From assembly GCF_022808855.1 (NCBI RefSeq), contig NZ_JAKZLF010000001.1, positions 1-64,000 on the forward strand: a DNA stretch of 64,000 bases, in the 5' to 3' direction. Shown here in pieces: positions 35,565-39,620 of the stretch. Every line of letters begins with the position of its first letter. Positions within the stretch are counted from its first letter, which is position 1. Below the pieces are notes generated by a model that had not been told where the DNA came from, did not search any database, and saw only the letters and a list, made by a program, of their open reading frames with translations. The DNA is from Anaeromyxobacter soli. Lineage in GTDB: Bacteria > Myxococcota > Myxococcia > Myxococcales > Anaeromyxobacteraceae. The position numbers were made by a program, and so were the translations under genes.

Positions 35565-35565
<1 letters not shown>
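34126..35565 (-). CDS. leuC: 3-isopropylmalate dehydratase, large subunit
   Basis: 479 residues. The [4Fe-4S] cluster cysteines are visible in [16 protein letters not shown] and [32 protein letters not shown]-like [17 protein letters not shown] near 35 and [22 protein letters not shown] near 140 are also conserved. The ATG at 35565 shares one base with the leuA stop (TGATG), so the two are translationally coupled. It works with LeuD. Confidence 0.97.
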
Positions 35566-37268
<1,703 letters not shown>

Positions 37269-37295
37269 GCGGTCTCCTGGCTCCTGTTTCGTTGG

Positions 37296-37352
37296 GGCCG
37301 GAGAACGTCGCCTGTCGGGGGCAACCTCTCCGGCCGGTTCGGCGGAAGAGGT
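37296..37352 (-). promoter_or_regulatory. Alternative hairpins in the leuA leader
   Basis: Segment B (37324-37335) can pair either with A (37343-37352; ACCTCTtCCG with CGGAGAGGT) or with C (37296-37304; GGCCGGAGA with TCTCCGGCC). The two pairings share bases and exclude each other, the usual logic of amino-acid attenuation. No T-run follows C, so if it is an attenuator it is not a standard intrinsic terminator. Confidence 0.45.
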
Positions 37353-37364
37353 CGCGGCGCGGCG

Positions 37365-37427
37365 TTAGCCTGACCGGGATACCTCTCCCGCCAGGCTAAG
37401 AAGTCGGTGCGCGCGTACGAGGAACAT
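37365..37427 (-). CDS. Possible leucine leader peptide upstream of leuA
   Basis: A 20-codon reading frame, MFLVRAHRLLSLAGEVSRSG, ends 96 bases before leuA. It has four Leu and two Val codons, including adjacent CTT CTT, a Leu codon that is rare in this G/C-biased genome. Codons 10 to the stop lie within a hairpin (TTAGCCTG 37392-37399 with CAGGCTAA 37365-37372), and competing hairpins follow. This is how leader peptides of branched-chain operons are built. No Shine-Dalgarno site precedes it, but the predicted mRNA start is only about four bases upstream. Short Leu-containing frames arise by chance, so this remains a hypothesis. Confidence 0.4.
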   Translation of the reverse strand: MFLVRAHRLLSLAGEVSRSG

Positions 37428-37437
37428 CAGAAAAACG

Positions 37438-37467
37438 AGCCTAGCGATCCGCGAGCGGACCTGTCAA
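37438..37467 (-). promoter_or_regulatory. Possible promoter of the leuA operon
   Basis: Minus strand perfect -35 TTGACA (37462-37467), 18-base spacer and -10 TAGGCT (37438-37443, three of six matches). The predicted start near 37431 is about 160 bases upstream of leuA and just before the possible leader peptide. Confidence 0.45.
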
Positions 37468-37611
37468 GCGGGGCGCACGACGCGCACGGCGGGCCGCCGC
37501 GCTCCCTGCGAAGGAGCGGGCGCACGATCGCTGATCGAAGGGCGAGCACGACGCGATGGGCCTCGAGCCCGTCACTCCGCGTGGACGCTCGGATGATCGC
37601 CAAACGACGGC

Positions 37612-37646
37612 GTGATTCGCGAATCACCCGAGGTGATTCTCGAATC
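37612..37646. promoter_or_regulatory. Tandem palindromes with GTGATTC arms
   Basis: GTGATTCGCGAATCAC (37612-37627) is a perfect 16-base palindrome. GTGATTCTCGAATC (37633-37646) repeats 13 of its first 14 bases exactly 21 bases further on. The spacing of two helical turns suggests binding of a dimeric regulator side by side. The block lies just past the thrS stop and about 145 bases upstream of the leuA -35 box. It could also act as a hairpin at the end of the thrS message. Confidence 0.5.
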
Positions 37647-37658
37647 GCCGGCCGTCGC

Positions 37659-39620
37659 CTAGTACGGCGGCGTCGCCTCGCGGCGCAGCAGCGCCTCGAA
37701 CGCGTCGAGCGACATGGTCTTGAGATCCTCGCCGCCGTGGCGGCGGGGCGCGACGCCCTTCGCCTCGACCTCCTTCTCGCCGATGACGAGCGAGAAGGGG
37801 ATCTTCGCGAGCTGCGCGTTGCGGATCTTGGCGCCGAGCTTGTCGGAGGACTCGTCGAGCTCGACGCGCCAGCCCTGGGCCGCGAGCTTCGCCTGGACCT
37901 CGCGCGCCCAGGCGTCGAACCGGTCCGAGACCGTCACGACGCGCGCCTGCACCGGCGCGAGCCAGGCCGGGAAGACGCCGGCGTAGTGCTCGGTGAGGAT
38001 GGCGATGAAGCGCTCGAAGGAGCCGTACACCGCGCGGTGGATGACGACCGGCCGGTGCTCGTGGTTGTCGTCGCCGACGTAGGTGAGGTCGAACCGCTCC
38101 GGCGCCGCGTAGTCGAGCTGGATCGTGCAGGTCTGCCACTTGCGGCCGAGCGAGTCGGTCACGACGAAGTCGATCTTCGGGCCGTAGAACGCGCCGTCGC
38201 CCGGGTTCAGCTCCCAGGGCAGGCCCATCTTGTCGAGCGCGGCGCGGAGCGCGCCCTCCGCCTTGTCCCAGAGCGCGTCGTCGCCGATCCGGTCCTCGGG
38301 CTTCAGCGGGCGGGTCGAGAAGAGCAGCGAGAACTCGAGCCCGAACGCGCCGTACACCGTCTTCATGAGCTCGACGATCCGGCTGACCTCCTCCGGGATC
38401 TGCGACTCCATGAGGTAGAGGTGCGCGTCGTCCTGCGCGAACTGGCGGACGCGGGTGAGCCCGCCGAGCGAGCCGGAGAGCTCGTTCCGGTGCAGCGTGT
38501 CCACCGTGAAGTAGCGGATGGGGAGCTCGCGGTACGAGCGCTTCCCCATCTTGTAGAGCAGGTGGTGCGAGGGGCAGTTCATCGGCTTGAGGCTCATCGA
38601 GAGCCGCTCGTCGACGGGGAGCGCCGGGTCCGACTCCTTGTCGAACACGAGGAACATGTTCTCGCGGTAGACGCCCCAGTGGCCGCTCTGCTCCCACAGC
38701 CGCTTGTTGAAGAGGAGCGGCGTCTTCACCTCCTGGTACCCGCCCTTCGTCACGAGGCGCCGCATCGCGTCCTCGAGGACGTTGTAGAGCGTGGTCCCGT
38801 TCGGCAGCCAGAACGCCGCGCCGGGCGCGACCTCGTGGAACGCGAACAGGCCGAGCGCGGGCCCGAGCTTGCGGTGATCGCGCTTCCGCACCTCCTCGAG
38901 CTTCGCGAGGTGCGCCTCGAGCTCCTTCTTGTCGAAGAAGGCGGTGCCGTAGATGCGCTGGAGCATCGCGTTCCGCGCGTCGCCGCGCCAGTACGCCCCC
39001 GCGACGTTGAGGAGCTTCACGACGCCGATGCGCTTGGTCGACGGACCGTGCGGGCCGAGGCAGAAGTCGACCCAGTCGCCGTGGCGGTAGAGCGTCAGCG
39101 TCTTCGCCCCGCGCGCGGCGATGTCCTTCACGATCTCGACCTTGTACTTCTCGCCCAACCCCTCGAAGAGCCCGAGCGCGGCGTCCATCGAGATCTCCTC
39201 GCGGACGAACGGGAGGTCGGCCGCGATGGCCTCGTTGGTCGCCTTCTCGATCTTCTCGAGGTCCTCCGGCGTGAAGGGCGTCTCGCGCGCGAAGTCGTAG
39301 TAGAAGCCGTCCTCGATCGCCGGGCCGATGGTGACCTGGGTGCCCGGGTAGAGCTTCTGGACGACCGAGGCCATGACGTGCGCCGCGTCGTGGCGCGCGA
39401 CCTCGAGCGCCTCGGGGCTCTTCGTGGTGACGATCTCGAGCTTCGCGTCGCGGTCGATCGCGCGCGAGAGGTCCACCGCCTCGCCGTCGAGCCTGGCGAA
39501 GTAGGCGGCCTTGGCGAGCCCGGGCCCGATCGACGTCTTCACGAAGTCGAGGACGGTGGTGCCGCGCGGCGCGTCCTTCTGGCTGCCGTCGGGGAGGGTC
39601 ACCTTCACGAGATCGGACAT
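37659..39620 (-). CDS. thrS: Threonyl-tRNA synthetase
   Basis: 653 residues. An N-terminal TGS domain ([21 protein letters not shown]) is followed by the editing domain with [10 protein letters not shown], then the class II core with [10 protein letters not shown] (zinc-binding Cys), the [20 protein letters not shown] motif 2 region, and the anticodon-binding domain at the end. I chose the ATG at 39620 (MSDLVKV), with GGAAG six bases upstream, over a reading that extends to 39701. It is a single gene with its own promoter. Confidence 0.97.

Follow-up and report, generated by a model that had tools for sequence, protein, structure and literature searches.

The leuA gene of Anaeromyxobacter soli is preceded by a short conserved leader which is probably a leucine-responsive, ribosome-mediated translational attenuator. 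This leader was found in the window analysed here, the first 64,000 nucleotides of contig NZ_JAKZLF010000001.1. It combines a promoter, a short frame with two adjacent rare leucine codons and a chain of alternative pairings between GC-rich RNA strands leading to the Shine-Dalgarno site of leuA. The leader frame, its codons, its promoter and the conserved alternative pairings are established at the level of the sequence, at which the link between the leader and leucine is also well supported. We regard this element as a variant form of leader attenuation by ribosomes, distinct from both the classical terminator class and the LEU class.

The leader frame, its promoter and their conservation

The initial annotation of this region had proposed a candidate leucine attenuator with all its elements between a promoter and leuA. 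Every part named at that time is indeed present, and the promoter, the frame and the pairing strands all lie on the minus strand between thrS (which ends at 37659) and leuA (35565..37268, ATG at 37268). The latter encodes a 2-isopropylmalate synthase, LeuA1, so named from sequence motifs, and is the first gene in the order leuA-leuC-leuD-ilvB. The promoter (37438..37467) consists of TTGACA at 37467-37462 and TAGGCT at 37443-37438, separated by an 18-nt spacer. It is followed by a leader frame of 20 codons plus TAA (MFLVRAHRLLSLAGEVSRSG; 37365..37427), which runs from the ATG at 37427 to the TAA at 37365. The length given earlier for this frame is correct, and its description as rich in Leu and Val is a mild overstatement, as the peptide contains 4 Leu and 2 Val in 20 residues with R-L-L as its conserved core. 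This core is encoded by CGA CTT CTT (37398..37406, Arg-Leu-Leu), the proposed stall codons, also designated strand 0 below. The two adjacent CTT codons (37403-37398) are rare, as had been claimed: in five neighbouring genes, leuA, leuC, leuD, ilvB and thrS, CTT accounts for 1 of 219 Leu codons and CGA for 1 of 177 Arg codons.

In the window, the ATG follows the -10 box after 10 nt, too short a distance to accommodate a Shine-Dalgarno site for the frame; the lack of such a site had already been noticed. Since a -35/-10 pair situated 7-11 nt ahead of the start codon, as observed across 22 homologous loci, leaves little or no 5' leader, the frame is probably translated as a leaderless peptide. 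A generic promoter scan called no promoter, because its cut-off demands 4 matches in the -10 box. The promoter of the leader was recognised instead through its conservation, a TTGAC sequence and an A/T-bearing -10 box with a 16-18 nt spacing being found in 22/22 homologous loci.

A DNA search of the family detected the leader in 22 of 24 genomes, belonging to six genera; in the two remaining assemblies, leuA is a fragment at a contig end and the region upstream is absent from the assembly. A start codon (17 ATG, 4 GTG and 1 TTG), an open frame of 20-21 codons and a stop are kept at the same place in all 22 loci. The start codon lies 24 nt upstream of CGACTTCTT, but 21 nt in three of them, and leuA begins 92-104 nt past the leader stop. 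All 12 gaps within the leader frame are multiples of three, versus 42 of 157 gaps downstream of the stop. CGA CTT CTT is invariant in the alignment, in which only two Leu codons of the frame are conserved. Judged from these alignments, the conservation of the leader is far beyond chance. The proposal of a leucine attenuator before leuA, for which the conservation of the short frame and of the stems in relatives had been suggested as a check, is thus supported by the frame, the codons and the stems kept in 22 loci.

A covariance model built on the element retrieved it once per leader-bearing genome of the family, together with one weak antisense match (in G009, L057) that was discarded as a palindrome artefact. 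A second DNA match in G010 (L031) was similarly rejected as a chance match. With strict filters, under which distant forms could be missed, the model found the element in 0/121 other genomes of the order and in 0/171 non-family genomes of a 195-genome Myxococcota sample. The Rfam covariance models, applied at gathering and relaxed thresholds, gave no match with the leader of the window, nor with the related loci at a relaxed threshold, and no description of this leader was found in the literature searched.

Alternative pairings between the leader frame and the leuA Shine-Dalgarno site

Six strands and one hairpin can be delineated on the minus strand from the stall codons to leuA. The leader hairpin H1 (AGCCTGGCGGGA / TCCCGGTCAGGCT; 37367..37397) pairs 37397-37386 with 37379-37367 through 12 pairs and one bulge, and overlaps the 3' half of the frame in agreement with the initial annotation; 78% of its cells are paired in 21 sequences, with weak covariation. 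Strand 1 (GGCGGGAGAGGT; 37381..37392), which is located inside the frame, pairs over 12 pairs with strand 2 (GCGACCTCTTCCGCCG; 37340..37355) to form the proposed ON helix. Strand 2 can alternatively pair with strand 3 (CGGCCGGAGAGGTTGC; 37321..37336) through 11 + 4 pairs. Strand 3 can in turn form 10 pairs with strand 4 (TTCTCCGGCC; 37296..37305), the last base of which, 37296, coincides with the left edge of the interval first annotated. The other partner of strand 4 is the Shine-Dalgarno region of leuA, strand 5 (GGAGCCAGGAGA; 37273..37284), whose AGGAG (37278-37274) would be masked by strand 4 when the OFF fold forms. Pairing 1:2 and helix 4:5 are additional to the structures described earlier. 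The MFE z-score of the window leader is -2.33.

On the alignment, 94.7% of the cells are paired for 1:2 and 91.1% for 3:4. Three pairs of these two helices are changed on both sides, one of them in 1:2, and their joint covariation score is above that of all 500 shuffles. H1 taken together with 2:3 is 85.7% paired, with a weaker covariation than 1:2 plus 3:4. A second, alignment-light test of coevolution asked, with 11 clusters, whether the duplex energy of two strands is better when both come from one lineage than when they come from different ones. These clusters are still related by descent and the following P values are to be taken as a guide: 3:4 is more stable within than between lineages (-20.05 versus -18.05 kcal/mol, permutation P=0.0002), 2:3 also fits better within lineages (P=0.002), and the values for 1:2, 0:3 and H1 are P=0.07, P=0.06 and P=0.14, respectively. 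Helix 4:5 is stable and its result is not significant (P=0.17); this helix has little freedom to change, its 3' side being constrained by the anti-Shine-Dalgarno sequence and its 5' side by strand 3. Pairings 2:5 and 1:4 received no support in the same test.

The initial annotation had described two mutually exclusive 9-bp pairings. In the 22 loci, 2:3 and 3:4 are indeed, by these comparisons, mutually exclusive conserved pairings that both coevolve. Strand 3 has therefore preserved its complementarity to both of its partners, a hallmark of a switch. Strand 0 is also able to pair with strand 3; this pairing, or a slow decoding of the codon, are guesses that might account for the invariant CGA. 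A pseudoknot between ACTTC and the GAGGT loop of H1 was considered as well and dropped, this loop being missing by eye on the alignment in L017, L018 and L020.

The nearest system by description is the LEU element found before leuA in Actinobacteria, whose mode of action was stated to be unknown and for which a pairing of the Leu codons with the Shine-Dalgarno site, arranged around a pseudoknot, was proposed (Seliverstov et al. 2005, PMC1262725). Both leaders encode a peptide with Leu codons before leuA, lack a terminator and include the Shine-Dalgarno site in an RNA structure (PMC1262725). Control of the same kind in the present leader, either by pairing of the leucine codon run with the leuA Shine-Dalgarno site or by a protein binding to the leader, could be suggested by these common traits, by the ability of CTTCTT to pair with AGGAG and by the presence of five of the loci before a LeuA type that resembles the actinobacterial one. 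It is nevertheless very improbable. The strand 0:strand 5 pairing is weak (mean -6.6 kcal/mol), shows no better fit between strands of one lineage than between those of different lineages (P=0.73) and hardly occurs in the folded ensemble (0.08 pairs), and this equivalent of the base stem of the LEU element was rejected. In contrast to the LEU element, the Shine-Dalgarno site would be hidden here through the separate strands 4 and 5.

Ribosome position and predicted exposure of the Shine-Dalgarno site

The stall codons directly precede strand 1 and the stop of the frame sits between strands 1 and 2. A ribosome placed on CTT CTT would therefore open H1 and leave strand 1 free, and a ribosome at the leader stop covers part of strand 1. 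In the trp leader of E. coli, the stall codons and the stop have the reverse placement relative to strands 1 and 2. The E. coli type of logic, in which the stalled ribosome covers strand 1, 2:3 is the ON fold and 3:4 the OFF fold, agrees with the classical order of strands 1-4 and with the coevolution of both 2:3 and 3:4. It is quite unlikely to operate here, given that the stall codons end ahead of strand 1, that no T residues follow 3:4 and that 3:4 is predicted to open the Shine-Dalgarno site rather than to close it.

The translational attenuator proposed here was explored by computing partition functions while a mask representing the ribosome was stepped along the leader frame. A single peak of 1:2 plus 3:4 pairing and of Shine-Dalgarno exposure was obtained, with the leading edge located 10-14 nt downstream of the C of CGA, and among all of the ribosome positions tested a clear shift from 2:3+4:5 to 1:2+3:4 was seen only there. 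This peak corresponds to an A site at CTT1/CTT2 if pairing of the RNA is possible at distances of about 8 nt or more past the A site, and at CGA/CTT1 for 11-12 nt, the optimum being the CGA codon with 12 nt. The difference between the peak and the late positions amounts to 0.143; in 12 control sets with the downstream sequence shuffled, it did not exceed 0.040. This effect comes mostly from six loci (0.32-0.52), which include the group of the window (0.52 for the window itself), and is weaker in the other loci, being near zero or negative in several of them. With the ribosome on the second CTT, simple equilibrium folding still prefers 2:3+4:5 in many loci and does not yield the ON state, so that kinetics must help.

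The state of strand 3 is predicted to control the access to leuA: when it is occupied, strand 4 would cover the Shine-Dalgarno site, and when it is free, it would take strand 4 and expose this site. In the window, the predicted probability that the Shine-Dalgarno site is unpaired rises from 0.13 in the OFF state to 0.81 in the ON state. The site is predicted to be more open with strand 3 free in 22/22 loci, with a mean of 0.48 versus 0.23.

The absence of a T-run after the last stem, pointed out in the initial annotation, extends to all stems: no T-run follows 2:3, 3:4 or any other stem in the window leader or in any of the 22 sequences, and no intrinsic terminator with a U-tract was found in the window leader. 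These data bear directly on transcriptional attenuation, in which the same leader and ribosome logic would apply and 2:3 (or 3:4) would end transcription through Rho or a terminator devoid of U-tract. Such a mechanism is the usual form of leader control for amino-acid operons, and a C-rich untranslated stretch is indeed present downstream of the leader. In relatives outside the family (L094-L098), moreover, the 2:3 hairpin is extended and runs into TTTCGCGTTTC, an arrangement that looks more terminator-like by eye. The lack of T-runs argues against this possibility, as does the terminator scan, which did not accept the 2:3 hairpin even in L094 and L098. A plain 2:3 terminator also leaves unexplained the coevolution of 3:4 and the fact that strand 4 adjoins, and pairs with, the Shine-Dalgarno region. 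Transcriptional attenuation is thus rather unlikely. Translational attenuation is the best reading, because the state of strand 3 is predicted to gate the Shine-Dalgarno site in all 22 loci and no T-run follows the stems. The mechanism has to differ from the textbook one, as anticipated from the missing T-run and the missing Shine-Dalgarno site of the frame; of the options then listed, a leaderless peptide combined with translational control fits best.

The proposed sequence of events is as follows. Transcription would start at the leader start codon or a few nucleotides before it, and a ribosome would translate the frame without a Shine-Dalgarno site. When leucine is sufficient, this ribosome would run to the stop, strand 1 being covered and then refolding into H1; 2:3 would pair, strand 4 would take the Shine-Dalgarno region and leuA would be translated inefficiently. 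A shortage of charged tRNA-Leu would cause the ribosome to stall at the rare CTT CTT codons, with H1 opened and strand 1 free. The 1:2 pairing would then release strand 3 to strand 4, and the resulting 3:4 helix would leave the Shine-Dalgarno site exposed and leuA translated. We infer the stalling, leucine as the signal, the assignment of the ON and OFF folds and the translational output from the features described above.

Amino-acid attenuation is taught as a control of transcription termination, and several of the classical leu and trp attenuators of enterobacteria are represented in Rfam. Like them, the present leader places regulatory codons in its peptide and has a series of mutually exclusive pairings, but it differs by the lack of a terminator and of an Rfam match and by the opposite placement of the stall codons and stop with respect to strands 1 and 2. 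In the erm genes (ermCL type), a ribosome stalled on the leader in response to a macrolide rearranges the hairpins, so that the downstream Shine-Dalgarno site becomes accessible. The same succession of events is proposed here with charged tRNA instead of a macrolide as the signal, and the sequences are unrelated. To our knowledge, the way leader peptides work in high-GC bacteria, which have few U-tract terminators, is largely open. Together with erm-type translational attenuation, the nearest systems in mechanism are the leaderless poly-cysteine attenuators of mycobacteria (Canestrari et al. 2020, as described in PMC9031893). According to this citing paper, a leaderless short frame precedes a biosynthetic gene there as well, and the speed of the ribosome on the codons of the product sets downstream translation, the amino acid being cysteine and not leucine (PMC9031893). 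The 22 natural variants define a clear set of mutually exclusive helices from which a translational read-out is expected, and a genus that can be cultivated makes this expectation accessible to single point mutations.

Relatives outside the family and two types of LeuA

Leaders homologous in their frame were found before leuA2 in Myxococcota/deltaproteobacterial MAGs outside the family (L094-L096 and L098). They carry plain Leu runs (MDFHGAQLLLNSLLDLQLRRAGGV, MDQRTLGLDLLLSLLLGGAGGV and ...DLLPGLLLSGAGGEV) and end in the same strand 1. Those of L096 and L098, LLLSGAGGEV and LLLGGAGGV*, present the same choice between 1:2 and 2:3. The predicted energies of these alternatives outside the family are about -29 kcal/mol for 1:2 and -37 to -44 kcal/mol for 2:3.

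Within the family, five genomes, three from the genus of the window and two from another, contain two leuA genes. In these five, the leader precedes a free-standing, non-orthologous LeuA2 (related to TIGR00970), and the leuA1-leuCD-ilvB cluster beside thrS has a plain promoter without leader, as judged from the upstream regions of three of these genomes. The leader sits before a leuA in all cases, and its presence before two non-orthologous genes suggests that the regulatory RNA follows function, not gene. The LeuA2 leaders form one group in the leader tree, and their hosts lie apart in the LeuA1 tree; given this discord, a transfer or a second copy of ancient date is likely. A remnant conserved for its coding or its structure and unrelated to leucine regulation, for instance a short frame merely aiding the translation of leuA, would accommodate the conservation of only two Leu codons. 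This explanation is scarcely credible in view of the invariant rare codons, the coevolving exclusive helices and the occurrence of the leader before two different leuA types, with homologues carrying Leu runs.

Upstream of LeuA2 in other bacteria, 36 of 78 loci contain short frames with an in-frame CGA-CTN (Arg-Leu), versus 1 of 78 on the reverse complement, the carriers being mostly Proteobacteria and many of the loci coming from related Halomonadaceae. The CGA-CTN signature may therefore be older than the element described here. A broader reading can be entertained tentatively, as a possibility less probable than the attenuator itself. In a six-strand RNA relay, the leucine codons would themselves be one strand of the switch, strand 0 (CGACTTCTTCGCC) mimicking strand 2 (CGACCTCTTCCGCC) and being able to hold strand 3, such that only a ribosome on those codons would expose the leuA Shine-Dalgarno site. 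Translational attenuation specific for an amino acid and based on a leaderless peptide would then exist in Gram-negative bacteria of this lineage. It would be shared by two leuA genes that are not orthologous, and would descend from a family of CGA-CUN leaders that spread with LeuA2 across phyla.

Several additional observations were made on these loci. The CGA-CTN frames lie 60-280 nt before LeuA2 (L097, L103, L104, L105-L117, L127, L130, L150, L164 and others), with examples such as LDLRLLAGL in Halomonas, RLIGCRRD in Brevundimonas and LRLTRP in Sphingomonas. An Rfam scan of six loci of this type (L103, L104, L109, L127, L150 and L158) found no family covering them. In L097, L103 and L104, two Arg-Leu leader frames are arranged in tandem before one leuA2, as if attenuators had been stacked; those of L103 read MEQIRDLALLRLI* and ...LALLRLIGGRRS*. 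In two Frankiales MAGs (L145 and L170), LeuA2 is preceded by the leaders MTHASLLLSGRDGV* and ...SGLLLMRRGGALS*, probably the counterparts of the LEU elements of Actinobacteria; the former has an LLLSG core in common with the myxobacterial leader of L096.

In full-length LeuA1, the first ~44 residues are not conserved (37268-37136 in the window; L013, L015, L019, L021, L025, L088, L090 and L091). In several genomes, this 5' region contains another promoter-like box (TGGTAnnnT or similar) together with an internal start codon, GTG or ATG, and genomes with the leader on LeuA2 retain only this short upstream region at leuA1. Finally, a palindrome of ~50 nt (GATTCGAGAATCACCTCGGGTGATTCGCGAATCACGCCGTC) lies between leuA and thrS at 37596-37646 of the window; seven related copies are found elsewhere in the genome, as for a dispersed REP-like repeat.
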